From assembly GCA_020050835.1 (NCBI GenBank), contig JAGVKB010000120.1:1-64000 (forward strand): DNA of 64,000 bases, written 5' to 3'. The first letter of the stretch is position 1, and the number at the start of each line of letters is the position of its first letter. Source of the stretch: Candidatus Obscuribacterales bacterium. GTDB lineage: Bacteria > Cyanobacteriota > Vampirovibrionia > Obscuribacterales > Obscuribacteraceae. Below the pieces are notes generated by a model, which saw only the letters and a list, made by a program, of their open reading frames with translations, was not told the origin of the DNA and did no database searches. Shown piece by piece: positions 12,790-61,044 of the stretch. The position numbers were made by a program, and so were the translations under genes.

Positions 12790-12959
12790 TTCGAAATGGA
12801 CAGACTGACCCCTTCTCGATATAGCCGAGCCGGGATCTTGATGGGATTGACGATCCTCTTGCCGACCTGATTGCGACAGTAATGCGCGGTTTAGCGGGCA
12901 GGAGATCCTATAGATCCTAGCATAAGAGACAGCAGCGTTTCGCCCGCAGCGGTGCTAAC

Positions 12960-44753: not shown

Positions 44754-45179
44754 TTACTTCTCATCTGTCTCGAAGTTCATAGCGGTACTTAACTCAAGTT
44801 GATCCGCCTCTCGACAGTTTTGGTCGCCCGCGCAGGGTTCGGATGCACTCAAGTCATCTGCAGACAATGTCTTAGAAAGTTCCGAAATCAATTGCTTGAA
44901 CTTTCCCAAACTCCGGTCGGTAGGACAACGTGCTTCGTCAATCAGCTTCTGCGATACCGCCTCACCATCCTGCCCTAAGGTGGAAATTTCGGGAACGCCG
45001 AAAGTCCTGCCGGCGCCAGACAGGAAATGGAAATGGTGCTGCATTCGAGAGACACTCCGTTTGTCGCCGCTTCCACTTTGATAGTCAGAGACAATCGATG
45101 TGAGTTCGCCAAGAGCCGCTCGCACTCGAGTGAGAAACTTACTTCGCATCGCTTGCAGAAGTATTTGCAAAGATTCCAT
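44754..45179 (-). CDS. Histidine phosphotransfer (HPt) domain protein
   Basis: 141 residues from ATG 45179. The frame runs open to 45599, but that part is antisense to the response regulator and is not real. The core FLTRVRAALGELTSIV followed by MQHHFHFLSGAGRTFGVPEISTLGQ matches the HPt signature H-x-L-[KSA]-G-[SA]-x3-[FL]-G, placing the phospho-accepting His at H51. Residues 90-141 are a polar tail. It would pass phosphate between a kinase and a receiver in a phosphorelay. Divergently placed from the OmpR-type regulator, 163 bp apart. The exact start is uncertain (TTG 45230 also possible). Confidence 0.65.
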   Translation of the reverse strand: MESLQILLQAMRSKFLTRVRAALGELTSIVSDYQSGSGDKRSVSRMQHHFHFLSGAGRTFGVPEISTLGQDGEAVSQKLIDEARCPTDRSLGKFKQLISELSKTLSADDLSASEPCAGDQNCREADQLELSTAMNFETDEK

Positions 45180-45342
45180 TGCTTGCCCTGTCGAACTCAA
45201 AGGTACAACGAGTTTATGTACCCACCGCAAGAGGCTTTCAAACCTCCGGAGTAACCGATTAGCGAAGTTGGCATCAATAAATGCCAGTAGATTGGGTACA
45301 TAACACAGTAAAGTCTTAATGGATCCCTGGCACTGATGCGCT

Positions 45343-46023
45343 ATGGCAAAAATACTGGTTGTTGAAGACGAAGACGTTTTTGCCGAACTGATTGCCAATC
45401 TCCTGCGAAAGGAGCAGCACGCAGTAGACGTTGCACGGGACGGTGACGCAGCGCTCGTACTTTTGAAGCTGAATTCGTACGAACTGCTAATACTTGACTG
45501 GAACATTCCCGGGCCCTCTGGGCTGGAAGTCTTAAAAACGTTCAGGGGAAAAGGTGGTAATACACCAGCGCTAATGCTTACTAGCAAGTCTGAGATCAAC
45601 GATAAAGAGACCGGATTCGCAGCCGGCAGCGACGACTACCTAACTAAGCCGTTCAATGTTCGTGAGCTAACTGCAAGAGTCAAGGCGCTCCTCCGTCGCA
45701 GTAGCAATCTGATCCCATCAGTGCTGCAGTTCGGAGCGCTCAAGATGAACCTGGATAGTTACTCAGTCGTAGTAAACGACACAACCGTTCACCTGCAGCC
45801 GCGAGAGTTTGCCCTGCTCGAGTTTCTGATAAAACACCCGAACCAGGTTTTCAGCGCCGAAGCGCTCATCTCGCGGGTCTGGTCTTACGAGCGAGACATT
45901 TCGGCTGAAAGCGTAAGAACATTTATTATGCGCCTGCGAAAAAAGGTCGAGAAGAGCGACTCCGGTATTCGCCTAAGGACGTTACACAAGCTGGGCTACA
46001 AGCTCGAGGCAGCCCAAGATTGA
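45343..46023 (+). CDS. OmpR/PhoB-family response regulator
   Basis: 226 residues. Receiver domain 1-115 with acidic pocket VVEDED, phospho-acceptor D52 in LLILDWNIPG and lysine in DDYLTKPFN. Winged-helix DNA-binding domain 130-222 with VHLQPREFALLEFLIKHPNQVFS, RVWSYERDISAESVRTFIMRLRKKV and LRTLHKLGYKLE. Family members bind head-to-tail half-sites with 11-bp spacing and contact sigma70 when bound at -35. Four such sites are found just to the right, before surface genes, and this is the obvious candidate to bind them. Weak ribosome site. Its stop lies 23 bp from the convergent kinase end. Confidence 0.95.
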   Translation: MAKILVVEDEDVFAELIANLLRKEQHAVDVARDGDAALVLLKLNSYELLILDWNIPGPSGLEVLKTFRGKGGNTPALMLTSKSEINDKETGFAAGSDDYLTKPFNVRELTARVKALLRRSSNLIPSVLQFGALKMNLDSYSVVVNDTTVHLQPREFALLEFLIKHPNQVFSAEALISRVWSYERDISAESVRTFIMRLRKKVEKSDSGIRLRTLHKLGYKLEAAQD

Positions 46024-46045: not shown

Positions 46046-47956
46046 TCATTTGACGAAATCTTTGCCCTCTTTCCTCAATTCCAATAAAATCGGATCATCA
46101 GGCAGGCAGGTGGATAAAGCCAGGACAAGCGCCTTCTGTTTGGCGGCACGAAACTGCCGTGAATTTCCCAGCCTTTGCTCGATCTTGGCTTTCAGCAACA
46201 AAGGCGGCAACAATTGAGCGGAATCCGCCCCGAGCAATGGAGCAAGCCTGGCAATAGTGCTATTTGTCAAAGTTGCAGCCCTGTCTAGCTGACCCTGTTG
46301 CAAGAAAGCCTCGACCAATAGCAATTCTGTCTGGGCGGCAAGCACACTGTTGGCGCCGACAGACTTTACCTGTAGTTTAAGCGCTTCGCTAAGCAGCTGT
46401 TCGGCCATCTTGTACTTCTGGTGCCGGCTGGCCCACTCGCTCAACGCCATAAGTTCACGTGCTACTTGAAGGCTACCTTGCGTGTTGTTCTGCGCAAACG
46501 CTGTCAGCGCATCACGCTTCAATGAGGACATCTTGCTCAGAGCTTGCTCTTCATCTAATTCCAGCGCAAGTCTGCGCTGCTTTCGCAGTGATGACAGCTG
46601 ACTCTTCACTGTAGCCGCTTCCGTATCCTTCCCCTGAGCCTTCTTTGTCTTGCAAAGGTAATCAAGACTCTCCATCACAGCAATAGTGCTGCCATCCCTT
46701 TCAGCTACCGGCACTGCCTCAAGGAAATACCGCTCAGCTTCCTCATAGTTTCCACTCAGTAAGGACCTTCTGCCTTTATCATCCAATCGAGCCCATTCGG
46801 TCAACCCTCGGGGTACTTGACTCACCTGGTCGTATTGAAATTTCAGCTCGTTGAGCACCAGCAGCCCCGTTACGACCAATAGGACTGAAGCACAGGCGAC
46901 ACCAAAAATGGGATTAGCCAGGACTCGACTCCGACGCATGAGCCAGCGACGAAGCGTAAGCCAGCTGCCCTGCCATCGCCGCTTGCCTGGCTGAGCAAGC
47001 GCTTCATGCAAAGCTTCGCCCAACTCCGCCATGCTCTGGAATCTGTCCCGAGGCTGCTTCTCCAGACACTTCAGAATCACCGACTCGATTGGCGAAGAAA
47101 GCTCGACGATCAACTTGCCCGCCTCGAAAGGGTCCGGATGATCAGCCAGATGCTTCATCAGTGTATCGAACGTACTCTCGCCGACCAGCGGTGGGTGACC
47201 AGCAATCGCCTCATACATTACACAACCGAAAGAGTAGATATCGCTGCGTGCATCGAGTTGTCCCCCGCTAATGTGCTCGGGACTCATATAAAACGGACTC
47301 CCAAACAACTCACCGGTACGAGTCAGGGTTTCAACCTTGTTGCCCTCCTGTGGCAACAGGCGCGCGATGCCAAAATCCACGATCTTGGCGGTCTGCTGTC
47401 CGACTTCATTTCTGACTACCATGATATTGCTCGGTTTCAAATCGCGATGGACGATGCCACGACGATGAACATGACTGAGAGCGTCGCAGCACTGCAAGAA
47501 GATTGTCGCGCATAACTCCTTTGTTAAGTTCCTAGCCTCGATCAGGTCTGCCAGGCTTTGTCCATCCAGATAGTCAAGCACGATGAAAGGACGTCCACTC
47601 TTATCTGCTCCGAAGTCGTAGATCGTGACAATATTGGGATGGCCAAGACTGCTTGACGCCATCGCTTCCTGCTGAAAACGTTTCAAACTTATCTCATCGC
47701 ATTCTTGCTCCTTCAACATCTTCAGAGCAACAGTTCTGTTCAAAAATAGGTGGCGAGCCTTGTAGACAATGCTCATGCCACCGCGACCGAGGACCGAGAT
47801 TATCTTGAACCGCTCTCCAAGCACGGTTCCAATCAGCGGGTCAACGCTTGCCAGAACAGCTCCATCCTTCGGGCATACGATTTCGCCCGATGAAACTTCT
47901 AGCCCGCATTCAACGCAACGCCTGACGTCCAGCTCTTCCGACATGTCTGCCGCCAT
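46046..47956 (-). CDS. Membrane Ser/Thr protein kinase with N-terminal zinc ribbon
   Basis: 636 residues. A short zinc-ribbon-like start (CVECGLEVSSGEIVCPKDG, residues 14-32) precedes a Hanks-type kinase domain (about 50-315): glycine loop GRGGMSIVY, K79 in VALKML, HRDLKPSN (catalytic D172), DFG 194-196 and SPEH. A transmembrane helix (about 345-368, ACASVLLVVTGLLVL) is followed by a 260-residue extracytoplasmic region of TPR-like helices (LDDKGRRSLLSGNYEEAERYF). All catalytic residues are intact. It probably senses an envelope state and phosphorylates cytoplasmic targets. Convergent with the response regulator and divergent from the histidine kinase, so possible cross-talk. Confidence 0.94.
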   Translation of the reverse strand: MAADMSEELDVRRCVECGLEVSSGEIVCPKDGAVLASVDPLIGTVLGERFKIISVLGRGGMSIVYKARHLFLNRTVALKMLKEQECDEISLKRFQQEAMASSSLGHPNIVTIYDFGADKSGRPFIVLDYLDGQSLADLIEARNLTKELCATIFLQCCDALSHVHRRGIVHRDLKPSNIMVVRNEVGQQTAKIVDFGIARLLPQEGNKVETLTRTGELFGSPFYMSPEHISGGQLDARSDIYSFGCVMYEAIAGHPPLVGESTFDTLMKHLADHPDPFEAGKLIVELSSPIESVILKCLEKQPRDRFQSMAELGEALHEALAQPGKRRWQGSWLTLRRWLMRRSRVLANPIFGVACASVLLVVTGLLVLNELKFQYDQVSQVPRGLTEWARLDDKGRRSLLSGNYEEAERYFLEAVPVAERDGSTIAVMESLDYLCKTKKAQGKDTEAATVKSQLSSLRKQRRLALELDEEQALSKMSSLKRDALTAFAQNNTQGSLQVARELMALSEWASRHQKYKMAEQLLSEALKLQVKSVGANSVLAAQTELLLVEAFLQQGQLDRAATLTNSTIARLAPLLGADSAQLLPPLLLKAKIEQRLGNSRQFRAAKQKALVLALSTCLPDDPILLELRKEGKDFVK

Positions 47957-48132: not shown

Positions 48133-50346
48133 TTGAGACCACCTATGAGATTGAATCTTAAACTGACGCACTGGGGATTCGTTCTTGTCGGCGTACCGGT
48201 GCTGGTGGAGCTGGTCTTGCTAGCGTTGCTCTCCGTTCAACTCCAACAATCTTTCCAGGAGCGTCGCGCCGAAATTCGCTCGAAGTCGATCATTGCACAT
48301 GTCGGTGATCTGATCGAGCTGTTTCACGATATGTCCACCGGTCCGGCCGGATTTGGTCTAACCGGAGGAAAGCAATTCTCAGAGCGATACGAAGAGTCTG
48401 CCAGACAGGTACCGGAGAAGTTCGAGGCGATCGAAGGGCTGCTGGACGACAAACCCGCTGAGCTCAAGCAGCTCAACGAGGGCCGATTGATAGCGGATAA
48501 CATGATGAAACTTCTGTCCGACTTAGCCGACCTGATGCGGAAGGAAGATAGAGCGGAGCTGCTCTATCGAATCGAGACCGATGGTCCTGAGCTCAGACTG
48601 CAATACGACCAGCTGGCTGCCAAGATGGAAAGCATTATCTACCAAGAACGGAAGGTTGAACTAGCCAGTCCCGAAGCCCAATCAAAATCGAGGGAGCGAA
48701 TTGTACAGCTTCTCATTGTCGGCGCCATTGGCAATATTATCCTGGCTCTCGCTTTGACAAATTCATTCGGCAAGGCCATAGTCAAACGGCTGGCGATCGT
48801 ACAGGAAAACTGCCGGAGGCTAGTGACACTGGAAGCACCGGCCGTCATTTTAACCGGGAAGGACGAAATTGCTGAATTGGACCGGGCACTGCATCGAGTG
48901 GCCGAGGAGCTAAGCGAGCTCAGAGAACGAGAGCGAGCAATACTAGAAAGTACACTTGACGTTGTTTGCTCGATAGACTCAACTGGACGCTTTTTGCGGG
49001 TCGGGCCATCCTGCCAGAAGCTCTGGGGATATAGCTCAGAAGAGCTGATCGGAAGACGGCTCACTGACTTTATCGCGGAGGACAGCAAAGCTGAGGCACA
49101 CTCGCTGGTTGCCAACGCAGTTGAGCGTTCTTCCCGATGTACATTCGAGACGTCCATTCGCAAGCGAGATGGACAGATAAGCATTGTTTACTGGTACATC
49201 TCCTGGTCCAAACTCGACAACTCTCTTTTCTGTGTAGCTCAGGACATAACCGGCAGAAAACAATATGAAAAGGCGCTTGAAGCGAGCGAGTCATACATCC
49301 GTAGCATTATTGACAGACTACCTGTCGGGGTAGTCATCTGCGATCGCAGCGGACAGATCGAGTCTCTCAATACCAAGAGCTCGCAAATGCTGCAGTGGTC
49401 ACAAGCAGATTTAGCTGGAAAAAGTTTCACAGACATCCTGGAGAGTTCGCTTTTCCCTACGCTTGCTGATTTTCTGCAAACGCTAAACCAGAAAGAGATC
49501 GGTGGCATCAGCGAGTGGCGGATAAAGCGCAAGGCAGGACCACCCATTACGATCGAACTTACAAGAGAACTGTTCGAAACAGCCACTGGCACGAAACATT
49601 TGTTGGTTCTGCAAGACATCTCAGAGCGAGAAAATATCGAACGACTAAAAAAAGAGTTTGTCGCTATGGTCAGCCACGAGTTGCGCACGCCGTTGACTTC
49701 CATCAGAGGAACACTCGGTCTGGCAACAGCCGGCGCGTTCGGACACCTCAACGAGAATGCTGAAAATGCCTTTCGCACGGCGGAACGCAATGCGGTTCGT
49801 CTCACCAGCCTGGTCAACGATCTGCTCGACCTGCAAAAGCTTGAAAGTGGAAAGGTGGATATGGAGCTTCGTGAAATTGCCGTATGTTCTGCCGTGGAAA
49901 GAGCATTGGATTCAGTGAAGGGATTTGCCGAGAAGTTTGAGGTTGAGATCGCCCTGGACCTGGACGATCTATTGGTACGGGCTGACGAAGACCGATTGAT
50001 CCAAGTTTTGGTCAACCTTCTTTCGAATGCCGCCAAATTCTCACCGAAGGGCTCGACAATCACACTGAGCGTGCGCGAGGTCGGCGATACAGTCTTGTTT
50101 AGCATCACCGACCAGGGGCGAGGCATACCGGCTGAATACAAAGATGTGATTTTCGAGCGATTTCAGCAAGTAGACCGCAAACAAGACCGGCAGAAAGGTG
50201 GAACCGGTCTCGGGCTAGCTATCTGCCGAGCGATCGTAGAGCAACATGGCGGAATCATTGGCTTTGACAGCGAAGAGGGCAAAGGCAGCACCTTCTGGTT
50301 CAAGCTACCGCTGGAACGCCCTGAAGCACCACTGACCGCAGCATAG
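48133..50346 (+). CDS. PAS-domain sensor histidine kinase
   Basis: 737 residues from TTG 48133; ATG 48145 is the alternative. One membrane helix (13-33), a periplasmic helical region like CHASE3 (about 40-190, with FHDMSTGPAGFGLTGG), a second helix (about 195-215), a HAMP-like stretch, two PAS domains (about 272-385 and 390-500), HisKA with phospho-acceptor in MVSHELRTPLTSI, and HATPase with NLLSNAAKFSPKG, DQGRGIP and GGTGLGLAI. No receiver domain. Cytosolic autokinase feeding an OmpR-type regulator or the HPt protein nearby. It is the nearest kinase partner for the regulator at 45343, though not in one operon with it. Confidence 0.95.
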   Translation: MRPPMRLNLKLTHWGFVLVGVPVLVELVLLALLSVQLQQSFQERRAEIRSKSIIAHVGDLIELFHDMSTGPAGFGLTGGKQFSERYEESARQVPEKFEAIEGLLDDKPAELKQLNEGRLIADNMMKLLSDLADLMRKEDRAELLYRIETDGPELRLQYDQLAAKMESIIYQERKVELASPEAQSKSRERIVQLLIVGAIGNIILALALTNSFGKAIVKRLAIVQENCRRLVTLEAPAVILTGKDEIAELDRALHRVAEELSELRERERAILESTLDVVCSIDSTGRFLRVGPSCQKLWGYSSEELIGRRLTDFIAEDSKAEAHSLVANAVERSSRCTFETSIRKRDGQISIVYWYISWSKLDNSLFCVAQDITGRKQYEKALEASESYIRSIIDRLPVGVVICDRSGQIESLNTKSSQMLQWSQADLAGKSFTDILESSLFPTLADFLQTLNQKEIGGISEWRIKRKAGPPITIELTRELFETATGTKHLLVLQDISERENIERLKKEFVAMVSHELRTPLTSIRGTLGLATAGAFGHLNENAENAFRTAERNAVRLTSLVNDLLDLQKLESGKVDMELREIAVCSAVERALDSVKGFAEKFEVEIALDLDDLLVRADEDRLIQVLVNLLSNAAKFSPKGSTITLSVREVGDTVLFSITDQGRGIPAEYKDVIFERFQQVDRKQDRQKGGTGLGLAICRAIVEQHGGIIGFDSEEGKGSTFWFKLPLERPEAPLTAA

Positions 50347-50488
50347 TCCATAGCGCTAGAACTTAGCACTACACAGACAGTGTGCTCGCAGCGGGCGCAT
50401 CGCAGGCGCCGCCCCATCCGAAATCACTTATAAGTATGCGGTCAAAAAGTTGAAGACCGGCGAAAGTGGCGGAGGCGATCACTCATAT

Positions 50489-50521
50489 GGCTACAACTTG
50501 GTTGCAACTTTGCACTAGTTT
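50489..50521 (+). promoter_or_regulatory. PHO-box-like direct repeat plus -10, site 1 (before TadE-like gene)
   Basis: GGCTACAACTT (50489-50499) then GGTTGCAACTT (50500-50510), exact 11-bp period. Five bases later TAGTTT (50516-50521) fits a -10. No -35 hexamer; the second half-site lies over that position. The predicted transcription start near 50528 leaves a 62-base leader to ATG 50590. Confidence 0.75.
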
Positions 50522-50589
50522 AGGAACTGTGAACTGATGATTTCAAATAATCCAGACTAATGACCATCAACGACTTAGAGGACGGATCC

Positions 50590-51168
50590 ATGCTGAAAAG
50601 CTCTAGAAAAAACAACGGCACATCTATGGCTGAATTGCCTCTGGTTCTCCTTATTCTTTTTGTGATTCTCGGATTTCCTCTGATAGACCTGGTGACCATT
50701 ACGCTTCAATGTACCTGGGTTCGAACAGTCGTAAGAAGAGCCGCCGAGGAATCAGCAAAGAAAGCGACCTTCGACGACGCAACTGATCCAAATAGCGCAC
50801 GTGCCACAGCAAAGAGAATCATCGAGAACAGTTTGGCTCCGATGAATATCAAAACTGAAACACCGGATGTAAAAATAGTCGTTCTCAAGGGCGCAAAAAC
50901 TACAAACAGTCCTGCAACCCGCAAGGATCATTCAGCAACTATCGGTACTTATCTGGCTGACCAACAGTATCACTGTTTCAATCCAGATGTTCATGTAAGT
51001 GAACTCGAAGTGTCGGTTAAAGCAAGCATTACTCCGTTTTTAGTCTTCAACAAATCGATGTTCGGCAAAGTACCCGGACTAACGGAACCCTTTGAGATCA
51101 GAGAGTCTGCTCGCGCCTTCTTCGAGCACCCGGAAAGTTTGTTCGAACACGAATCTCAAGCGGAATAG
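50590..51168 (+). CDS. TadE-like pilus-associated protein
   Basis: 192 residues from ATG 50590 (GAGG about 8 bp upstream); TTG/ATG at 50560 is less likely. A polar start, then one hydrophobic helix (AELPLVLLILFVILGFPLIDLV), where the conserved Glu before the helix (MAELP) is the typical TadE/prepilin-like mark. A helical spacer WVRTVVRRAAEESAKKAT and an extracytoplasmic domain of about 120 residues follow. TadE-type pseudopilins belong to Tad/Flp pili or to surface secretion. No Tad ATPase or secretin is in the window. The gene has a PHO-box-like site at 50489. Confidence 0.75.
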   Translation: MLKSSRKNNGTSMAELPLVLLILFVILGFPLIDLVTITLQCTWVRTVVRRAAEESAKKATFDDATDPNSARATAKRIIENSLAPMNIKTETPDVKIVVLKGAKTTNSPATRKDHSATIGTYLADQQYHCFNPDVHVSELEVSVKASITPFLVFNKSMFGKVPGLTEPFEIRESARAFFEHPESLFEHESQAE

Positions 51169-51439
51169 CTGGGGCGGGAAGCGGCACTCGCGCAGCGCAG
51201 TCACACCCTGGGACTACTGAAACTCGACTACCTGCAGGTAGTCGACCACAGGACGGCATGTAAAAACTGCGATATAAACTGCAAGCACCATTTTGAAATC
51301 TGGCCCAAAGAAAGGTATTTTATAGAAACAGAAGCGCTCGGAGCCTGGTACTCAATTTTCATTTACTTGCCAGTCGAATTACTCAGGCTATGAATCTGGT
51401 CAACCTAAATTTAGCCTGAGAACCTCAGGAGGCTCGAAA

Positions 51440-52060
51440 ATGGCATGGGCTAACGCCATCAGGAAATTTTGGACGGAGACATGCCTCGCGATCCGGCGCC
51501 GGTCCAATGCTCCAACCCTCGATGAGATCGGCTGTGCAATGAGAGCGCTCCAGGACGAGCTTGGACCACACACGACTGTGGAGTATCGCAACCCCAATTG
51601 CCGCTTGACAGTTCCCAGCGACTCAACAAACATTATTTTGCAGTACCGAAAATATCGGGGACGGTGGGATACCAACGCAACCTATCCGGACATCTCAAGC
51701 AGTTTTCAATGCTCATGCCGAACCTCCTCTACGTTCAGATTTCAGATCGGTCGTAACCATTCACATTGCAACGCGATGGAATCTGGAAAGGTAAAAACAG
51801 GATTTACAGAGCTCGACAGCAGCTTTCTGACAACTACTAACGACCTTGAACTACTAAGGCACGTACTCGCAGACGACAACCTGCGAAGTCAACTACGCAG
51901 GTTTGATCCGTTTTACTGTTATTGCATACCAAACGGTACGCATTGGTCCATGCTCATATACTGCGATGCCAAACAAGTGCTGAACACAGATGGACTTAAA
52001 ACTGTATATGAAATTACCCGCAAATTTTACGAAAGACTAAGCACGCTTTCTGTCTGGTAA
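51440..52060 (+). CDS. Unrecognised protein
   Basis: 206 residues with an AGGAGG-like ribosome site (CAGGAGGCTCGAAA) before the ATG. No signal peptide or membrane helix. The N-terminal half is Arg-rich with helices (IRKFWTETCLAIRRRSNAPTLDEIGCAMRALQDEL). The C-terminal half has Cys/Tyr pairs (FYCYCIPNGTHWSMLIYCD). Eight or so cysteines are unusual for a cytosolic protein of this size. I recognise no family. The PHO-box-like element found before its neighbours is not present here. Lies between two genes that do have it. Confidence 0.6.
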   Translation: MAWANAIRKFWTETCLAIRRRSNAPTLDEIGCAMRALQDELGPHTTVEYRNPNCRLTVPSDSTNIILQYRKYRGRWDTNATYPDISSSFQCSCRTSSTFRFQIGRNHSHCNAMESGKVKTGFTELDSSFLTTTNDLELLRHVLADDNLRSQLRRFDPFYCYCIPNGTHWSMLIYCDAKQVLNTDGLKTVYEITRKFYERLSTLSVW

Positions 52061-52144
52061 CCTATCTGCACAGCACGAGCTTGTCCGCAATGCTGCCCTC
52101 CAGACTCTAGTCCGTTGAGCTCGCCAAAGAACCTAGATCGTACT

Positions 52145-52200
52145 GCCACCATCACCGGCGGCCACTCGGAAGATTCCGATTGCCCGCCGGTGATGGTGGC
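52145..52200. terminator. Long perfect hairpin between convergent genes
   Basis: GCCACCATCACCGGCGG (52145-52161) pairs perfectly with CCGCCGGTGATGGTGGC (52184-52200), 17 bp, with a loop that can fold again (TCGGA/TCCGA). It lies between the converging ends at 52060 and 52309. No T run, so a Rho-independent terminator is uncertain; a transcript-stabilising or repeat-type hairpin is possible. Confidence 0.6.
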
Positions 52201-52308
52201 TCTTGCGTACCGAAACTGTTTATCATAAGAAACATCTGCCCTCGCCTAATTAGGAGCTGCACGCAACTTAACTCCGAGCACGACATCTCTGATTGAACGC
52301 AACTGACA

Positions 52309-52872
52309 CTAGTTGCCCATCGAAAAGGTTGCCACAAAGAAGATGACCAACGCCACCATTGCACAGATAACTGCGATCACACCAGCTGAGTTCTTCTTAC
52401 CAGCCAATTTACAACGGCAGGTCACAATGGTTCCATCCGCTCGCCGGTATAAAGTATCTGGTCTTCGTCCCTCACGAAACATGATCAATGCTTCGAGCTC
52501 TCGATGACTCAATGTTTTCGGGTCGTAGACAAAGTGATTGCACATTTCCGACCACCTGAGTCTCTCCAATCCCACCATGGAATTCCACGGAACCGAGCAG
52601 GCGGAATCCTTGAAAACACGCATCATCACACCACTTTCCCGCTGGGACGGTCTATTTGCCCCGACGATCGGAACGCGGCTCTGGCGCTCTGAATTCTCTA
52701 ATACCTTCTGCTCGACAGCCGAGCGCTGCTGCTCTAGAAGCTCGTATATATTCTCCCGGCGCAAAGGTTCGGACGTGTTCTGCGTCACCGATTCAAAACT
52801 TGAGTTTTGCCGGCCCTTCGCAATCCTTTCAAACAGCCCGACTCTATTGTTACAGAATTGATTTAACAGCAT
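52309..52872 (-). CDS. Tail-anchored protein, unknown function
   Basis: 187 residues from ATG 52872. The frame opens at 52920, but the predicted transcription start (about 52919) excludes that. A soluble Arg/Glu/Ser-rich region (many charged residues, CNHFVYDPKTLSHRELEALIMF around 110-130) is followed by a basic stretch and one C-terminal helix (GVIAVICAMVALVIFFVATF), so the bulk faces the cytoplasm. No family recognised. The gene is preceded by a PHO-box-like element identical in layout to those before the TadE-, TadG- and adhesin genes, so it likely belongs to the same programme. Confidence 0.65.
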   Translation of the reverse strand: MLLNQFCNNRVGLFERIAKGRQNSSFESVTQNTSEPLRRENIYELLEQQRSAVEQKVLENSERQSRVPIVGANRPSQRESGVMMRVFKDSACSVPWNSMVGLERLRWSEMCNHFVYDPKTLSHRELEALIMFREGRRPDTLYRRADGTIVTCRCKLAGKKNSAGVIAVICAMVALVIFFVATFSMGN

Positions 52873-52925
52873 GACGTAAAACCTCGTACAACTTGCATGA
52901 TTCAGTAGCACTGCCAACATTCTTT

Positions 52926-52958
52926 AGTCTATTGATCTTCTGCAACCAAGTTGTAGCC
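52926..52958 (-). promoter_or_regulatory. PHO-box-like direct repeat plus -10, site 2 (before tail-anchored gene)
   Basis: On the minus strand GGCTACAACTT (52958-52948) then GGTTGCAGAAG (52947-52937), 11-bp period, five bases (ATCAA), then TAGACT (52931-52926) as -10. The first 11-mer is identical to site 1. Predicted start near 52919, 47 bases before ATG 52872. Confidence 0.75.
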
Positions 52959-53162
52959 AATCTGCTAGAGCAAACCGATCGCCCATACCTGGTGCGAGTC
53001 ACCACAAAATGAAGCCCACCGGCTCCATAACAGACAGCCCTGGCAGCGACCAATCACTGTGCAGCCGACTGAATGCAGAAAAATTCGAACGCAACTAACA
53101 AGGCGCGAGTGCAAAAGTAGCAACGATGCAAGACATTGGTCTTATCGGTTCTACGACTGACA

Positions 53163-56100
53163 CTACTTGTGTATGGCTACATAAGGACCATGAGACACAG
53201 TGACCATCTGAAGACAAGCAGCCATGGAGATCAGCTTGCTAGCCAGTAAGCGATCGCGCTTTTGCTTGCTGTTGATTACTTCTCTAAGAAGCTTGGAGTT
53301 GTGGATCAACCCGACAATAGAAACTTCAGAACTTGCTATGCTATGTCCGTTTGGAAGATCCAGCCTGCGAATATCCCGACGTCCTACTTGATCGTTCAGA
53401 CTGTTAACATTGTACTGCTTCCGTCCTACCAACAGAGCTTCCTCTCCAGCTGATATCGCAAATGAATTTGCCCCTAAGCTCACTTTGACGGACTTTCGCT
53501 TGTGCTCGTATACGTTTCGCACCTTTGTGACATCCCCTTGCTGGCAGACGTGCACCATGCCACCTTCCGATACACTTATGCTGTAAGAGCCGGCTCGTAC
53601 TGAAACGTCCTCGAATGCCGACAACAGCACCTCTCCTTCATACAGCGTCATATGTTGCTGCTCATTGAAAGAGAGAGTAGTGTCACCGATGTATCTCGTC
53701 TCAGCCTTATCAGTGATTACCGTTCTCAAGCGAGTTTCATTGGTACCACTGCTGGAGGCTATCCGCTCGTCGAAGCGCACCACCAATAAATTGCCTGAAT
53801 CAGAAAGCAGATCGCCAACTCTTTCAGGAAACAAATCAAAACGCTCATGTCTGATGGATACTTCATCTCCATGCGCACCAGAACTCGACGGAACGAGTCC
53901 CCATTTTCGTTGAATGTAAGCCTTTAGCGATCGCATGTTATCTGAACCCATCACTCCCACGCAGTCAAATCTACACATAAAGCTACTGGTATCATCTAGC
54001 ATCCTGTTCGCGTCGAAGGTTGATATGGCGATATCACATGCAAGCATTTTCTGATTGCGAGCACGGTCGATAGAATCTACGCCAGCTAGCTCACCAGGAC
54101 TTGACTCGGCAGCGGTTACAACCAGTTGTTGACCCGGCGGGACTTCCAACTGCCTGGTGCGGCCGCTCCGATCTGTCCCCACGAATTTCACCGGTGCACC
54201 AGCAATTGAGCTGACAACCAGGACACTTTTACCCGAGTCATTCCGGCACTCGACGATCGAGGCGCTCGAACCTGAAATCTCTACTTTGCCATATCTACTA
54301 CCAAAAACACAGCCCTCGTCCTTTGTTGCAAGAACCACCAGCTTGCCGCTTTCAATTTCAAGCGACCTCGCCCCGGAGCGTCCGACGGTAGCTCCAGAGC
54401 TACCAATCAAGAACAGACCGTCGCTGTGTTGAAATACAAATGGCTGACAGATACCGGGGGCAATAAGCCATTCTTCGCCATTGTCCGAACCGACCCCGAC
54501 ATTTCGATCTACGCTGAACGTGACAGCTTGCTGGCACATATCAGTCAGAGACTGTAAGACACCCTTATTGACCGGAGTGAGATCGGTTGGCACCAAAGCG
54601 TTCTTTTGCGGATCGGACGGAAGATTGAATCTGACGCCGAAAGGGTTGCTGGAGACACCCGGAACACCATCTCCCTCTGGAACTTCAGGTAGCAAGAGAA
54701 AAGGCAAGCTACCGACTATAGTCGAATTGTTGACGATTATCTCACCGGAATAAGTGCCACCGGGATCGATCAACAATCCGCCGCCCTGTGCTGACAGGGC
54801 TGAGCCTGTCAAAACGACGCTGCCAGACACGTTTCGTTCCAGTATGGTAGCCAACCCGTTGCCAGCTGACGATATGCCACCACCGCTAAGTGCCACAGTA
54901 AATCCAGAGACCCCGGTGACCAACTGCCCATCATCGAAGCTCATGCTGGCTGCGTTTTCTATTCGCAACGGCGGCGACTGTCCGTGCCTCTGCACGACCA
55001 TCTGATCGAGCTGTGCAAACGGAATGTCTGACAGTGGAATGAAGTCTTCTACCAAAGTCGGGGGCGGTCCATTTACAACTATCCCTACAACCCCGCCAAC
55101 CGGTGTCTGTCCGACAAATCCACCAATCGACTGCAAGGATGCGGAGTCTACATTCACCAGCGGAGCGACCGGTAGGGAAAGTGGATTAGTGTCAGCACCA
55201 TAAACATTCAGAGCCAGGTTTCCGCCAACCGCAGTAAGATTGCTTCCTGGATTCACGCTGATTCCAATCTCGCTGGAGTCTCTGAAACTGCCACCGGTCG
55301 GATCGCCACTCAGAATAAAAATTCCATTACTGACGGTGCTGGAAGAAACGGATGTAACATCGCCCGAAAGACTTACTTTACCTCCGCTTCCAATAGTCAG
55401 CCCGCTTCCGTTCACAGAAATGTTGGCCAAGGCGAGATCGGACAATATCGAAATCAACTGAGTTCCAAATTCATTAGGCGAAGTAACTGATACATCTATC
55501 CGGCTGCTTGCCGGAACCGTAATTGTCTCGGCCAGCAACAATACAAACGACTCGGCGCTCAAACTCAAACTGGCACCAGCCGCCAAGTCGAGTAGCGTGA
55601 CAGCCGCAGCGATTCCACCACCCTCAACTTGAATCGATGGGCTGGTTCCGCCGATATCGAAAGAGGACAACAACGCGCCGAAGCCTAGAGCCTGGTTTAA
55701 TGGAGAACTTCCGTTTGGCACTGCGCGAACCACAAACGGCAGGTCGCCACTCAGGGTAATAAAGATGGCAATTGCATTTGAAAAATTTACCGGTCCGTCC
55801 GCGTCAATTGACAGACGACCATTCATAGCAGGCGACAGATCGACATTGTCTGAGGACACTTGTAACCCGCCACCGCCCCGGCTGACTATCAGTCCACCCC
55901 CCAGTGTCAAATGACCTGTCCTTTCGGTAGGTAAAAAGAAGTTCCCGCGACCCAGCGTTGACAGCTCAGCACCACCGCTGTTGACCAACAATATCTGCCC
56001 GGTGCCGGTGTTATAGTCAGTCGTGTCATCGATTTCAGCCGAAAAGGGTTTTGGTTGTAAATTGGCACTACCCGAAGTCGATGCCAGCGTTATCTCACCG

Positions 56101-57923
56101 GCCACGTATACACCGCCAGGCAATGGTGCACCGGCCGCGCTGTTTGCCACCCGTGAAGCATTGATGCTGCCGACCGACACCGCCACGAACTCCTGCCCCT
56201 TTGTTGCCGGTGATCCAGGCACTCCGAAAACATCTTCAAAATTAGCGCCAGCCGGGTCAGAGACAAAAAATGGCACTACCAGATCATCGAAGCCAGCAAA
56301 CCCGTCTCCCAGCCCCAGAGGCACGACGATATCCCGAGACAGTGTAATCTGCCCCTGATCGTTATCAAAACTGACAAAACCGCCCCCTGGCAGCATGGAG
56401 GGAGTGACCGGCAGCGGACCGGAGTTCGTAAATGCAACTGGCAGAGTCCCAGACACCGGAACAGATCCGTCTTCATAAATCTGCTCGGAATGCGCCCCAG
56501 CTATGCTGCCAGTAACAACATTGTGATTAGTTCCGGACAGTCCGCCAACGGCCGTGACGAGAACATCGCCACCCCGACCGCCAACTCCGCTCGAAACATC
56601 TAGGCTCCCGAGCGAAATAGGCGCATCAGCGCTGGCATAGATACTGCCACCGCTGCCTCCAGCCGCAAGCGCTACTGCCTTAATATTAGCCGCCGTAACA
56701 CCGTTTCTTCCCAGCAGTGCTATGTGGCCGGCCTCGTCAAGGCCGGATGTATTGATGCCGCCCTGCACGTCTACAGCACCGCCAGCCACAAGCACAACAT
56801 TGCCTCCACGCCCGGTTGTGCTGGCTGTGTTGAGATCACTGGTGATGGTTATGTTACCGTTAGCTGTTACCTGGAAAAGCTCCCCAGCGAAATTTCCTCC
56901 CGGAGAAATGAAATTGCCAGCGACATTGAAGACCGGATCACCGGACAGGTCCAAACGCGCGATATTTAAGTCTCCACTTGAGACCGCAGCCGAAAGCTCT
57001 CTGGCCTTTATGGACACTGCCCCCTGCACTTGCTGCGCAGCCAAGCTAATTGCTCCCTGCAAAGCTGTGAGGTTGATATTTTGAGCCTGTAGCGCGCCAC
57101 CAGATACCGCCAGCTGGGACTGCCAGACAGCAGTCTGGATGTTGACCGTACCAGACGGAGCCAATATGTTGCCACCGGCATTGTTTACTACAAAACTGCT
57201 GCCGGATCCAGCAAAATTCACGTTGCCGAGAGTTGACTGAATGACACCGAAATTGCTTATCGACTGCCCTACCAACACACTCAAATCGCCTGTACTGGAG
57301 ATCAAGCCAGCATTAGCCAAGCTTCCAAGAACATTCAGCGTCAAATTCGCCTTGTCTTGAGCAAGCGCATTGGAAATCTGCCCGCCGGCAGCAACCTGCA
57401 GGTTGGACGCATTGATAATGCCATTTTCGGCCTGCATCAAAATGCTTCCTGCAATACTTGCCTGCCCTGCAATATTCAACGAATGGACAGTACTTTCACT
57501 TGCTGCACCACCAGAGCTGGAAGACACCACCGAATAAGCAACGACACCTTGCGGTAAAACGAAGTTAGCCAGACTGGTCGACGGCCCGAGATTGAGAGAG
57601 CCTCCTACTGCCGCACCCAGACTGTTGACGGTTAGTTCTTGCTGCCCGGACTGCACCTGAGTGAGCGCTACAAATTCTGCCGGTGTTAGCAACATGCCAG
57701 CAGAGATCTGTCTAGGGTCCTGGCCGGCAATCTGTATCTGTCCAGCAGCCGGAGCCTCGATTGAAGCTGTAGTGGACGAAAGGTCCAGATGCTCAGGCAA
57801 TGATTCCGCCAGCGCCGGCTGAAGTAAGAATTCACCGATAAATACAAGCAGTAAGATCCAGACAGTTCCTTGCTCGAATGTACTACCTGCACTAAATCTA
57901 CGCAGTGAATGAAACTTCACCAT
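53163..57923 (-). CDS. Large exported beta-helix adhesin-like protein with FecR-like segments
   Basis: 1586 residues from ATG 57923 (GAGGGA 6 bp upstream; 57953 would be almost leaderless at the predicted start site). Signal peptide to about 41 (QPALAES). Residues about 60-1090 are Ser/Gly/Asn-rich repeats of a parallel beta-helix like filamentous haemagglutinin (NAGLISSTGDLSVLVGQSI, GGNVVLVAGGAVDVQGG), opening with LTPAEFVALTQVQSGQQ. The last 480 residues differ: two stretches resemble FecR domains (about 1170-1255, ESGKLVVLATKDEGCV; about 1435-1510, LYEGEVLLSAFEDVSVRAGSYSI). Probably a cell-surface adhesin or matrix protein; no TpsB partner or autotransporter barrel is seen. Preceded by site 3. 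Confidence 0.82.
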   Translation of the reverse strand: MVKFHSLRRFSAGSTFEQGTVWILLLVFIGEFLLQPALAESLPEHLDLSSTTASIEAPAAGQIQIAGQDPRQISAGMLLTPAEFVALTQVQSGQQELTVNSLGAAVGGSLNLGPSTSLANFVLPQGVVAYSVVSSSSGGAASESTVHSLNIAGQASIAGSILMQAENGIINASNLQVAAGGQISNALAQDKANLTLNVLGSLANAGLISSTGDLSVLVGQSISNFGVIQSTLGNVNFAGSGSSFVVNNAGGNILAPSGTVNIQTAVWQSQLAVSGGALQAQNINLTALQGAISLAAQQVQGAVSIKARELSAAVSSGDLNIARLDLSGDPVFNVAGNFISPGGNFAGELFQVTANGNITITSDLNTASTTGRGGNVVLVAGGAVDVQGGINTSGLDEAGHIALLGRNGVTAANIKAVALAAGGSGGSIYASADAPISLGSLDVSSGVGGRGGDVLVTAVGGLSGTNHNVVTGSIAGAHSEQIYEDGSVPVSGTLPVAFTNSGPLPVTPSMLPGGGFVSFDNDQGQITLSRDIVVPLGLGDGFAGFDDLVVPFFVSDPAGANFEDVFGVPGSPATKGQEFVAVSVGSINASRVANSAAGAPLPGGVYVAGEITLASTSGSANLQPKPFSAEIDDTTDYNTGTGQILLVNSGGAELSTLGRGNFFLPTERTGHLTLGGGLIVSRGGGGLQVSSDNVDLSPAMNGRLSIDADGPVNFSNAIAIFITLSGDLPFVVRAVPNGSSPLNQALGFGALLSSFDIGGTSPSIQVEGGGIAAAVTLLDLAAGASLSLSAESFVLLLAETITVPASSRIDVSVTSPNEFGTQLISILSDLALANISVNGSGLTIGSGGKVSLSGDVTSVSSSTVSNGIFILSGDPTGGSFRDSSEIGISVNPGSNLTAVGGNLALNVYGADTNPLSLPVAPLVNVDSASLQSIGGFVGQTPVGGVVGIVVNGPPPTLVEDFIPLSDIPFAQLDQMVVQRHGQSPPLRIENAASMSFDDGQLVTGVSGFTVALSGGGISSAGNGLATILERNVSGSVVLTGSALSAQGGGLLIDPGGTYSGEIIVNNSTIVGSLPFLLLPEVPEGDGVPGVSSNPFGVRFNLPSDPQKNALVPTDLTPVNKGVLQSLTDMCQQAVTFSVDRNVGVGSDNGEEWLIAPGICQPFVFQHSDGLFLIGSSGATVGRSGARSLEIESGKLVVLATKDEGCVFGSRYGKVEISGSSASIVECRNDSGKSVLVVSSIAGAPVKFVGTDRSGRTRQLEVPPGQQLVVTAAESSPGELAGVDSIDRARNQKMLACDIAISTFDANRMLDDTSSFMCRFDCVGVMGSDNMRSLKAYIQRKWGLVPSSSGAHGDEVSIRHERFDLFPERVGDLLSDSGNLLVVRFDERIASSSGTNETRLRTVITDKAETRYIGDTTLSFNEQQHMTLYEGEVLLSAFEDVSVRAGSYSISVSEGGMVHVCQQGDVTKVRNVYEHKRKSVKVSLGANSFAISAGEEALLVGRKQYNVNSLNDQVGRRDIRRLDLPNGHSIASSEVSIVGLIHNSKLLREVINSKQKRDRLLASKLISMAACLQMVTVSHGPYVAIHK

Positions 57924-58247
57924 AGGATCCCTCGCTAAACACTCTGGCAGCATCCAAGTTCGAACTTACTTCTTATCTGTAACCAAACCGTAACCGTTCG
58001 CGCCGCCAGATGAATTCCACCGATGCGTCGACCGAACTATCTTTAGTCATCTCAGCTCCCCAGCTCTAAGACACTATCGTGAGGACAAGTCACCGAAAGA
58101 TTATTGACCAGGACTCAACTGAGCCAGTCACAGCGGCAGATCCAGATATCGCACGTTATTCCCCATTTATCACCTTTACCCAGCAAGACGCAGTCTGTAA
58201 CATCCATTCGGGCTCTGGAGACAGAGAAAGAGTATGACCGCATTCGG
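57924..58247. other. 324-bp intergenic region upstream of the adhesin
   Basis: Holds the PHO-box-like site 3 (57963-57995) near the adhesin start. The rest, up to the end of the TadE-like gene, shows no gene, hairpin or promoter that I can support. Confidence 0.5.
57963..57995 (-). promoter_or_regulatory. PHO-box-like direct repeat plus -10, site 3 (before adhesin)
   Basis: On the minus strand GGTTACGGTTT (57995-57985) then GGTTACAGATA (57984-57974), 11-bp period, five bases (AGAAG), then TAAGTT (57968-57963) as -10. Predicted start near 57956, 33 bases before ATG 57923. Confidence 0.7.
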
Positions 58248-58772
58248 TTACATTGAGGCAGAACCATCCGTTCCAGAAGACCCGATAGCGGTCACCTTCG
58301 GCAATCTTAGTTTGACTACCGGGAAAGTATATTGCTGTCTCAAACCAACTTTCGTGCCCGCTGAATCGGCCCCAAAAGGCATGAGCGGGAACGGCAGGCG
58401 AACAGACAGCCTGGTGCCAACCGTAACGCGCGGTCCATCACTTGACTCTGCTCCTTCCGTCGGAAAGCTGAATACTTCAGGCGCGTCAGCGTCAACGGTA
58501 AAAAATGACGGATTCAATTGGAATGAACTTATAACTGCCCTTGCCGCATTCTTTGCACTGGTTGCATCCGATGACTGAGCTGCCGCGCGTGCGGATTCGC
58601 GTGTAATTTTGTCGTTAAGACTGGCTGCTTGAACCAACAACACTGCGTTGGTTGTCAGCCCGATCATCACAAACAACAGCGGGATAGCAGCACACAACTC
58701 CACAAGTAGACTTCCTCTGCTGGTCCGATTTTTACTATTCGACTTCAGCCTGGGCGAGACGTTAATATTCAT
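58248..58772 (-). CDS. TadE-like pilus-associated protein (second)
   Basis: 174 residues with a perfect AGGAGG 8 bp before the ATG. Polar N-terminus, conserved Glu in LLVELCAAIPLLF, a hydrophobic helix (about 22-45), a helical spacer (SLNDKITRESARAAAQSS) and an extracytoplasmic domain of about 110 residues. It follows the TadG-like gene by 12 bp and is its operon partner, the usual TadE-TadG pairing. Different in sequence from the TadE-like protein at 50590, so two paralogues serve this island. Confidence 0.8.
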   Translation of the reverse strand: MNINVSPRLKSNSKNRTSRGSLLVELCAAIPLLFVMIGLTTNAVLLVQAASLNDKITRESARAAAQSSDATSAKNAARAVISSFQLNPSFFTVDADAPEVFSFPTEGAESSDGPRVTVGTRLSVRLPFPLMPFGADSAGTKVGLRQQYTFPVVKLRLPKVTAIGSSGTDGSASM

Positions 58773-58784
58773 ATGACTTACCTC

Positions 58785-60734
58785 CTAAAGCGTAACTAGA
58801 TTGCGCGCTATGTTTTGAAAGACCTGATCAAGCCTGCTTCTTATGTTGTCGCGCTGAGCCGGCTCCGGAGCCTGGTACTCACCCGGCAACATTGATGGTT
58901 TGACGCCGCCGGCAAAATCGCTTTCCGCTACCCGGTAATAGCGCGCTCCATGCCCTGAACTTCCGGCCAGTCCGAAACCATCTTTATACTGATCGCCAAG
59001 GTCTTTGTCGACGCTGCCAAGCTTAACTTCCGGGTCGTCTCGAAAATGCCAGTTGTGAGGAGCGTCGTAATGTCCAAACTCTTCGCGTGGTCCATAAAAT
59101 CCGATTGTATAAATCGGAATGCCCTGTTTACGAGCACGGTTGCAAGGGTCAACACACGAGCCCTGTCTCCAGGTATGAATCCCCAGAATACTTATCTTGA
59201 AGTCATCAACTAGCGGGAAATCCATCCAGCGCTTCAGCTTGTACGCCCACGGACTTTTGTCATCTTTGTTTTCCTCACGCAAGCCCAGCGCAAGTCCTCT
59301 GGTCAGAAGCACGATAACCTTGCGTCGCGTGGGATCTTTCTGTGCATCCAGCAAGTTAAGCGCTTCGTCGAGACCATGATTGATCGCCGAACCAGGATAA
59401 ACCGTAACCCCTTCCCCATCTTGATCGTTGCTGAGTTTTCTTTTGAGCGCATCGGCACTATCTGTCAGCTGACTGTAAGGCAAGGTGTATGTTCTGACCT
59501 CACCCACTCCTTTGCCAACAACGCTGCCGCCTGCAGTGTCGCCATAACCGGTCGAAACCGACTGGAACTTAAACTCAGAGGTGCTGGGGTCAGAATAGGC
59601 TGATGAGGCTGCCTGACCGGCAAATGTCACCAGGCCAATCCGCGCACCGGGATATCTCTCATGAAGAGTGTCGACAAACCCCCTCAAAGAATCCAAGCAG
59701 AGATTGAGTGGTTGAAGTTGCTGTCTTGCTTCCATTTCATAAGCCGAAGTAAAACCTTCCTTGCTTTGCTGTGCGGCTCTTGACTCATCGACAAGCTTTT
59801 CCAAAGGCCAGTTGGGTACATCAACGACGAGATCTGTATATTGCCGCTTTTCATCTTGACTGCCCGGACGAATAGGTCCGCCACGCAAGCCTGTTGCCGG
59901 GTCGACCTGAGCATCACCGAATGTCGCCGGAAGATCCCATTTACGAGGGTCCCCAGTTTCTCTAAGCAGTGGATTAAAGTGCAACATAGGGAAATAACCA
60001 CCCCCATCATGATTGGCGATTAGCATCTGGGGAGGCAATGGATAACCGATTGGATGCTCCCATCCGCGCTTACCGAAAACCATCTCCCCATTGGGACAGA
60101 CATCATACCCCCACTCATTGCTCAACCCCTTGCCGGGGTCGTTGTCCTGCCACTTCCTGTACCTTCGAGCGAATTTTACCGGCGTCCAGTCAGCCATCCT
60201 GTCGCCAATCTCCACACAAAGTACGATATCCAGTTTTGGGAAGGCGACTTGGGATTTACACTTGAGCTTATAGGGGCTCAACCCGAGAATTCTTTGACAC
60301 AGCGGAGTAACCGTACAGCTCGAGTTGACCTTCACCGTGACTGGCTCCTTAGCGCTTCCATCAACCACCTCGAAGTCGATGAAGGAACCTTTTTGAAGTT
60401 TGGATCCTAAAATTGTATTTTCAGCAAAAATCTCGTCGGCAACTTTCCTGGCAGTCGCCTTGATGTTTGTGCTGGCGCCAGTGGAATTGCCTTTATCCGC
60501 ATATGTCAGCAAGTATGCCAACCCTGCCGCATCAGTTGCAACCTTAAGCTGTTCAGATGCAAGCGCCGCACGGCTCACTTCCAGGGCAAAGAGTCCAATC
60601 GCTCCTAGGACAGCAAAGCCAAAGACCAGAGCCAAAGCCGATACTGCTATACCGGATTGCTTTCTAACCATCCGCGGTGCAGTTCCGCGCACAGCCCTAT
60701 CCTGCGTTCTCAAACCACTAGTTGCGTACTTCAT
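58785..60734 (-). CDS. TadG-like protein with degenerate von Willebrand A domain
   Basis: 649 residues from ATG 60734 (GGTGG 7 bp upstream). The frame runs open to 60812, but that is the predicted transcription start. After a Lys/Arg-rich start comes the TadG helix (GIAVSALALVFGFAVLGAIGLFALEVSRA), then ASEQLKVATDAAGLA as in TadG/RcpC proteins. The VWA domain (about 175-640) carries the first strand DIVLCVEIGDR, a helix-strand LRGFVDTLHERYPGARIGLVTFAG, and IVLLTRGL then IPIYTIGFYG. The MIDAS pattern DxSxS is replaced by ExGxR and the later D of LLTDG by R, so metal binding is probably lost. A long insert (about 170 residues) separates the first strand from the rest. Surface or pilus-tip adhesin-like function. 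Confidence 0.78.
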   Translation of the reverse strand: MKYATSGLRTQDRAVRGTAPRMVRKQSGIAVSALALVFGFAVLGAIGLFALEVSRAALASEQLKVATDAAGLAYLLTYADKGNSTGASTNIKATARKVADEIFAENTILGSKLQKGSFIDFEVVDGSAKEPVTVKVNSSCTVTPLCQRILGLSPYKLKCKSQVAFPKLDIVLCVEIGDRMADWTPVKFARRYRKWQDNDPGKGLSNEWGYDVCPNGEMVFGKRGWEHPIGYPLPPQMLIANHDGGGYFPMLHFNPLLRETGDPRKWDLPATFGDAQVDPATGLRGGPIRPGSQDEKRQYTDLVVDVPNWPLEKLVDESRAAQQSKEGFTSAYEMEARQQLQPLNLCLDSLRGFVDTLHERYPGARIGLVTFAGQAASSAYSDPSTSEFKFQSVSTGYGDTAGGSVVGKGVGEVRTYTLPYSQLTDSADALKRKLSNDQDGEGVTVYPGSAINHGLDEALNLLDAQKDPTRRKVIVLLTRGLALGLREENKDDKSPWAYKLKRWMDFPLVDDFKISILGIHTWRQGSCVDPCNRARKQGIPIYTIGFYGPREEFGHYDAPHNWHFRDDPEVKLGSVDKDLGDQYKDGFGLAGSSGHGARYYRVAESDFAGGVKPSMLPGEYQAPEPAQRDNIRSRLDQVFQNIARNLVTL

Positions 60735-60818
60735 CTCCATTCCACCCGTAGTTGAAAGTCCCAGCCAAACGTTGCCGTACAGTTGTGCTTTACGCGCACC
60801 CTCAGCATCCACAATTTC

Positions 60819-60851
60819 ACCCTATCCAGGAGATGCAACCAATTTGTAACC
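60819..60851 (-). promoter_or_regulatory. PHO-box-like direct repeat plus -10, site 4 (before TadG-TadE operon)
   Basis: On the minus strand GGTTACAAATT (60851-60841) then GGTTGCATCTC (60840-60830), 11-bp period, five bases (CTGGA), then TAGGGT (60824-60819) as -10. Predicted start near 60812, 78 bases before ATG 60734. Confidence 0.75.
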
Positions 60852-61044
60852 AATCGCCCGGAAGCTCTCCGGATGAGTAGCTTGCGGCAGAGCACTTGCA
60901 TGGTGGCATTCTTACTACTCCTGCTGTCTGGCACGCACTATTAGTGGTGCGCCATTTAGACAGGCAGTATCACCTTTCATCAGGTAGAATGAACATGCGG
61001 TGAGCAGTCCGTAATCGAGATGTGAGCTCATACAACGATTAACA

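Follow-up and report, generated by a model that had tools for sequence, protein, structure and literature searches.

The 64,000-nucleotide stretch of contig JAGVKB010000120.1 of a Candidatus Obscuribacterales bacterium that was analysed here (the window; the contig is called C4 below) carries an island of genes for surface proteins. Four transcription units at 50.5-60.9 kb of this island are each preceded, in register, by a composite element, TGGYTACRNNTTGGTTRCA-N9-TARNNT, with a CGG start in one copy. The units encode a TadE-like protein, a tail-anchored protein, an adhesin and a TadG-TadE pair, and genes for a two-component system lie close by. The boxes and their geometry, their genome-wide restriction, the two-component neighbours and the enrichment of local boxes of the same geometry near other regulators were all computed.

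Four composite boxes and their distribution

The composites lie at 50489-50521 (+; GGCTACAACTTGGTTGCA...TAGTTT), 52926-52958 (-; GGCTACAACTTGGTTGCA...TAGACT), 57963-57995 (-; GGTTACGGTTTGGTTACA...TAAGTT) and 60819-60851 (-; GGTTACAAATTGGTTGCA...TAGGGT), which confirms the coordinates and strands in an earlier note on this DNA. That note also placed the half-sites 11 bp apart, and the spacing is indeed exactly 11 bp, head to tail, in all four composites. It gave the distance to the hexamer in two ways: a hexamer 5 bp after the second 11-mer is correct when counted from the GG, whereas the figure of 7-8 further bases is not, as exactly 9 bases separate TGGTTRCA from TARNNT in each copy. Every box has the correct orientation ahead of its unit and lies over the -35 position. 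At the four sites there is no sigma-70 consensus -35/-10 pair in their reading direction, and no Rfam family matches in the region. Outside the composite the flanks of the four sites show no conservation, apart from a faint GAAMTTG past the hexamer. In Table 1 the boxes are written from the base preceding the GG.

The earlier note had seen, by eye, no second paired copy elsewhere in the 64 kb, and a pattern search for GGYTACNNNTTGGTTRC agrees, finding it at 0 mismatches nowhere in the window beyond the four composites. In a leave-one-out matrix analysis every held-out site ranked top in the remaining window at 14.9-29.8 bits, compared with 9.3-12.8 bits for the best unrelated site (half-shifted matches of the boxes were not counted). 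The source genome (G000) was searched whole, as 7.01 Mb in 154 contigs. Here, TGGYTACNNNTTGGTTRCA at up to 1 mismatch recovers the four sites plus one intragenic site, and a profile built from the four sites, the scan that the note had proposed, returns at E ≤ 10 only these four (E = 3.5e-8 to 1.4e-7); since the E-values are in-sample, the informative part is the absence of any further match. According to the note, a regulon would be refuted if the element turned up within genes just as often as ahead of starts. Every other match with up to 2 mismatches in the genome lies within an open reading frame (ORF) and the profile hits only the four, so the element is not as common inside genes as it is ahead of starts. 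Across GTDB (84,980 species), the exact composite occurs as 14 scattered singletons in unrelated taxa, with no contig carrying two; by our estimate ~15 random matches are expected by chance in that collection, from which the source genome may be absent. In 60 related genomes, matches with up to 1 mismatch are scattered only, and mostly inside ORFs. The occurrence of the four boxes is not due to chance.

A few matches in relatives lie between genes. In two species of one genus (L029 and L030, from G031 and G021), TGGTTACAACTTTGTTGCA is conserved ahead of an opine-dehydrogenase-like gene, and G049 has two intergenic matches (L031, L032). The intergenic TGGTTACNNNTTTGTTRCA sites at these four loci may represent a related operator.

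Genes of the island and its sister islands

All gene starts in Table 1 are mechanical ORF calls. Neither the TadE-like protein of unit 1 nor the adhesin of unit 3 has a Pfam or NCBIfam match, and to call the latter haemagglutinin-like is a judgement, made in the earlier note and by ourselves. Relatives of the TadG-type N-terminus of unit 4 are present in 26 of the 50 family genomes searched, its own genome included. A TadA ATPase, TadB-C and a secretin were found neither among the scanned window proteins nor at 60-100 kb of C4 (a genome-wide search was not made), and in this range the locus thus lacks the genes that, beside TadE/G, make up a Tad pilus locus. The tail-anchored protein of unit 2 belongs to a family with a conserved Cys-rich segment and 25 loci in the source genome, which cluster near OmpR-type regulators: genome-wide, of the 24 family genes found elsewhere than in the window, 12 have a regulator at a distance of 12 kb or less, where 3.6 are expected (p = 6e-5). 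Filamentous-haemagglutinin-like (FHA-like) adhesins are not significantly nearer to regulators across the genome (6 of 25 within 12 kb, p = 0.17).

Ahead of box 1 lie the signalling genes, among them an OmpR/PhoB-family response regulator (45343-46023) that the earlier note had not noticed. It is the only one of the genome's 51 PF00486 loci on contig C4, and it scores too low to pass any of the NCBIfam equivalogs listed, PhoB, RpaB and RppA included. The start of the regulator gene is overlapped by the Hpt ORF on the opposite strand, and the histidine kinase gene has its 3' end 142 bp ahead of box 1. Kinases related to the Ser/Thr kinase are found in islands on contigs C44, C50 and C117.

Table 1. 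Boxes, hexamers and genes in the window, with the basis of each assignment
Feature	Position	Strand	Basis
Box 1, 11-bp direct repeat TGGCTACAACTTGGTTGCA	50488..50506	+	pattern, profile, leave-one-out matrix
-10-like hexamer TAGTTT, box 1	50516..50521	+	fixed offset
Box 2, TGGCTACAACTTGGTTGCA	52941..52959	-	pattern, profile, leave-one-out matrix
-10-like hexamer TAGACT, box 2	52926..52931	-	fixed offset
Box 3, CGGTTACGGTTTGGTTACA, most divergent of the four	57978..57996	-	pattern, profile, leave-one-out matrix
-10-like hexamer TAAGTT, box 3	57963..57968	-	fixed offset
Box 4, TGGTTACAAATTGGTTGCA	60834..60852	-	pattern, profile, leave-one-out matrix
-10-like hexamer TAGGGT, box 4	60819..60824	-	fixed offset
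TadE-like pseudopilin-type protein (unit 1)	50590..51168	+	ORF; weakly similar to TadE-like ORFs in other islands
Tail-anchored protein (unit 2), member of 25-copy family in genome	52309..52872	-	
Filamentous-haemagglutinin-like adhesin (unit 3)	53163..57923	-	ORF; relatives among adhesin ORFs in other islands
TadG-like protein with VWA-like segment (unit 4, gene 1)	58785..60734	-	PF00092, below cut-off
TadE-like protein (unit 4, gene 2)	58248..58772	-	ORF, similarity to other islands
Hpt-domain protein	44754..45482	-	PF01627 slightly above cut-off; homologue in C117 island
OmpR/PhoB-family response regulator, proposed to act on the four boxes	45343..46023	+	PF00072 + PF00486
TPR-containing Ser/Thr protein kinase, gene placed between those of the regulator and the histidine kinase	46046..47956	-	domains
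Histidine kinase, CHASE3-PAS-PAS-HisKA-HATPase, proposed partner	48145..50346	+	domains

Within the genome, the histidine kinase has its nearest paralogue (44% identity) on contig C117, encoded beside a response regulator 48% identical to that of the window. This locus (L208) also carries an Hpt homologue, a tail-anchored homologue, a Ser/Thr kinase and an adhesin related to the one in the window (31% over 496 aa), and on contig C44 (L179) a regulator, kinase, adhesin and tail-anchored gene are again found together. Because C117 and C44 repeat the signalling-surface gene set, the regulator and kinase of the window are most likely part of the island and not chance neighbours. Receiver-Ser/Thr kinase fusions are present in the sister islands (L179 17222-18457, L189 13091-14329 and L208 14599-15840); unlike these, the Ser/Thr kinase of the window has no receiver.

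Further along C4 are a PPK2 gene (64.5-65.4 kb), without a box in the genome-wide profile search, and, shortly past the window, a 3743-aa ORF without a Pfam match (L033 7986-19217, C4:67986-79217, minus strand). A helicase with HTH_17, a DUF3800 protein and an AbiEi/AbiEii toxin-antitoxin pair at L034 11181-16639 (C4:91.2-96.6 kb) are likely a defence cluster.

Direct repeats of 11 bp near other regulators

For a comparison within the genome, direct repeats in non-coding DNA with two or more occurrences in a locus (identity at least 13/16) were collected from the neighbourhoods (≤20 kb) of the genome's OmpR-type regulators and from 40 regulator-free 20-kb control loci. Period 11 yields 23 pairs in 13 regulator loci vs. 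1 pair in 1 control locus, whereas periods 9, 10, 12, 13 and 14 yield 2-5 pairs at regulators and 1-9 in controls. When the window is excluded, 12/49 regulator loci and 1/40 controls have such pairs (Fisher p = 0.003); raising the identity to at least 14/16 leaves 8/49 and 0/40 (p = 0.006). The controls were drawn from five large contigs and one stretch of C86, and regulator loci are often on small contigs; the counts for the other periods argue against a general repeat bias as the cause, without excluding it. A TANNNT hexamer is present at an identical offset in both members of 12 of 45 period-11 pairs, from the window (six pairs), L180, L189, L192 and L195, the hexamer offset and thresholds having been picked after the window had been seen. 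Such agreement is absent from control pairs and from pairs of other periods, except for two period-13 reads of the TGTCACA array in L177. With the hexamer required, a scan over gap lengths gives a pair count that has its maximum at gap 8-9 and drops to zero at ≤4 and at ≥14, with no control pair at any gap. At least one of the TadG, TadE, adhesin and tail-anchored families is present in 16/48 sampled regulator neighbourhoods vs. 1/40 controls. Single sites are weakly enriched in the source genome (43 vs. 31, p = 0.02). Judged by the controls of that genome, 18 single period-11 composites would be expected in regulator loci of relatives, and 41 are observed (7-27 at other periods); none of 25 such loci has repeated composite boxes.

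The boxes at these loci have the same 11-bp repeat in different spellings. Several show the complete architecture of the window, and the -10 offset is common to at least four of them (TTTGGNACA, TTTGCACA, TTTGTTAC and GTTTKACC). On contig C77 (L192), TTTGGNACA-type boxes at 904-, 6472-, 6796+ and 8968+ have the hexamers TAATCT, TAGACT, TAAACT and TAACTT, each nine bases past the second 9-mer. Contig C128 (L195) has TTTGCACAC-type boxes with TAGATT and TACTCT, contig C122 (L180) has TTTGTTAC/CCTGTTAC with TACACT and TATGCT, and on contig C50 (L189) CGTTTGACC/CATTTTACC with TATACT and TATATT lie between two regulators of near-identical recognition helix. Three TCTGTCACA-like arrays on C47 (L177), seen by eye and also found by the period-13 search, precede TAAAGT, TAAAGT and TACACT. 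In whole-genome searches the TTTGGNAC and TTTGCACA boxes are each restricted to their own locus. Two of the box-bearing loci have TadG-like genes and one has an adhesin: L189 encodes at 8838 a TadG with VWA and PF13400, followed by a TadE-like gene and with a tail-anchored homologue opposite, and L192 has the N-terminus of a haemagglutinin-like adhesin (1-837, -) as well as a TadG-like gene (9076). From island to island the letters of both half-sites alter together; most half-sites have a TTTG-like start in common and differ in the remainder. The recognition helices vary as well, being SAESVRTFIMRLRKKVE in the window, SLDTIRSFIRMLRRKID on C128, APEALRVCLARLRKKID on C122, SPDTVRTNIKRLRQKID on C47, and SINTVKTYVYMLRKKLA and SLNTVKSFVYLLRKKLA on C50, and each of them may read its local half-site.

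Period-11 pairs at four further loci are probably not of the box type: those of L210, which are tandem repeats, those of L170 and L209, and those of L188 (C41:63501-83500), a KdpE-like locus in which CGTAAAGA half-site arrays at 12822-12873 and 19060-19101 precede two ORFs of similar length, with the KdpE-like regulator near. In L206 (C41:43201-63200), three GGTGACA-type 11-bp repeats (3795, 8119 and 10769) lie by a regulator without the common -10 offset; one is 156 bp upstream of the regulator gene, and these repeats are perhaps an autoregulated variant.

A proposed local activator, rival explanations and known systems

If a head-to-tail OmpR/PhoB dimer acts on a class-II-type promoter, just this arrangement is expected: tandem halves that co-vary, lie over the -35 and keep a fixed distance from TANNNT. 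The four composites also have the general traits of OmpR/PhoB operators, i.e. tandem head-to-tail half-sites with a period of ~10-11 bp (11 bp in 4/4) and a fixed place over the -35, followed by a -10 (N9 to TARNNT in 4/4). We consider it likely that a tandem-binding OmpR/PhoB-family regulator, most likely the product of 45343-46023, activates its own island via a private operator, and that the genome contains several insulated versions of the design, in which paralogues reuse the geometry with other letters. Each composite would be an activator-dependent promoter, to which the phosphorylated regulator would bind head to tail at the two 11-bp half-sites (TTGGYTACA/TTGGTTRCA), substituting for the absent -35 and directing RNA polymerase to the TARNNT hexamer, which follows after 9 bases. 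The histidine kinase 48145-50346 would feed the regulator, possibly along with the neighbouring Hpt and Ser/Thr kinase proteins, and the TadE-like, tail-anchored, adhesin and TadG-TadE genes would be turned on together. The box is private to the island, and paralogous regulators elsewhere would use the same geometry and other letters for their own neighbourhoods. We infer the binding, the identity of the binding protein, activation over repression and the transcription starts from these arrangements; as the cognate regulator, 45343-46023 is a candidate by domain and position. A local regulon under a tandem-binding activator of the PhoB/OmpR type had already been put forward in the earlier note, and geometry, orientation, island restriction and the in-window regulator all lend support to that proposal.

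Several observations weigh against this assignment. The regulator gene itself lacks a box and lies at a distance of 4.5-15 kb from the four, and with 51 regulators in 7 Mb one would be found within ~5 kb of a regulon by chance in about 1 in 7 cases. Of the closest sister islands, that on C117 has no box, and that on C44 offers one candidate only (L179 11989, minus strand, TTCGACCCG-TTTTGACCCG). In addition, the genomes compared include no close relative of the island, and the TadG relatives in the family genomes, only 30-42% identical, are too divergent for footprinting across species.

With 51 paralogues in the genome and the nearest box 4.5 kb off, the boxes could instead be operators of another OmpR-family activator. 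We regard this as unlikely, given that the contig has no second such regulator, that elsewhere boxes sit close to a regulator, and that the C117 island repeats the Hpt-regulator-kinase-adhesin-tail-anchored set. A same-family repressor, or one protein that represses some units and activates others, is improbable: OmpR-family proteins can act as repressors, and a box over the -35 could obstruct polymerase, but the same -10 distance in all four copies, with no consensus -35 to obstruct, is the layout of activated Pho-type promoters. The fixed distance to a conserved hexamer and the absence of a consensus -35 would also fit promoters of an alternative sigma factor of the extracytoplasmic function (ECF) type, the two half-sites forming an extended -35. 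ECF promoters have a non-repeated -35 and are not tandem repeats, whereas here one 8-9-mer occurs twice at 11 bp with both copies co-varying between islands; no sigma-factor domain was detected among the scanned window proteins, and we consider this explanation very improbable. Finally, boxes 1 and 2 are nearly identical, sharing ~20 bp in opposite orientation, and could partly stem from copying, which is a further point against the proposed regulon. It is nevertheless hardly credible that the four boxes are what is left of a promoter or mobile element that was copied, or are inversion recombination sites, without a common regulator. The flanks are unrelated and the similarity ends at the functional letters, sites 3 and 4 differ in the spacer yet retain half-sites and hexamer, no recombinase was found among the proteins scanned, and the geometry recurs in other islands with changed letters.

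That sister islands near related regulator genes bear boxes of one layout in different spellings suggests a wider picture, in which each island has its own regulator and a private address code. We see the chances as evenly balanced that surface islands have been duplicated into a family in this genome and that every member has an OmpR/PhoB-type regulator of its own and a private 11-bp tandem operator of constant geometry, largely constant TTTG-like start and variable 3' half-site, such that dozens of paralogues are insulated at the DNA level and the regulator-to-operator code can be read from one genome. The ~50 OmpR-type regulators, several with private boxes of the same geometry, would then make up a natural series in which recognition helices are paired with half-sites, and the pattern suggests independent expression of alternative adhesin/Tad surface sets, each under its own sensor.

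The nearest known system is the Pho box, two head-to-tail 8-mers with 3-bp linkers in an 11-bp unit, read by PhoB-family proteins (PMC1906773; PMC4415409), SphR in cyanobacteria. The window boxes share the 8-bp repeats and the 3-bp linker; their letters (TTGGTTRCA) are unlike the E. coli half-site CTGTCAT (PMC4415409). The earlier note had recognised both the resemblance and the different letters, in agreement with the published Pho-box spacing. The window regulator scores 189 bits against the PhoB equivalog TIGR02154 (cut-off 296), and the targets are TadE, tail-anchored, adhesin and TadG genes, whereas those of PhoB are phosphate genes. HLR1, the element of the cyanobacterial regulator RpaB, likewise consists of tandem GTTACA-type half-sites with an OmpR-family reader, but (G/T)TTACA(T/A)(T/A) occurs twice with 2 nt between, i.e. 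with a 10-bp period (PMC9241938). The window has period 11, period 10 shows no excess near regulators, and the regulator reaches 131 bits against the RpaB equivalog NF045944 (cut-off 330). By these comparisons the window box would work like a Pho-type operator, yet outside the Pho and RpaB regulons, and the best reading is that the geometry is the known one of the Pho box and the arrangement a new variation on it. How duplicated two-component systems remain insulated has been clarified mainly for the kinase-regulator interface (for example PMC9208753). A literature search found no description of paralogues with constant geometry and private operator spelling on surface islands. To our knowledge, a splitting of DNA specificity among duplicated two-component systems is much less documented than insulation at that interface. 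Related systems are also those that regulate genes adjacent to them and insulated paralogous ones such as the duplicated EnvZ/OmpR systems, in which, as here, a regulator has been duplicated and has its own partner and targets; in contrast to those insulated paralogues (PMC9208753), several paralogues here appear to keep one promoter geometry, each with its own operator spelling, on surface islands.

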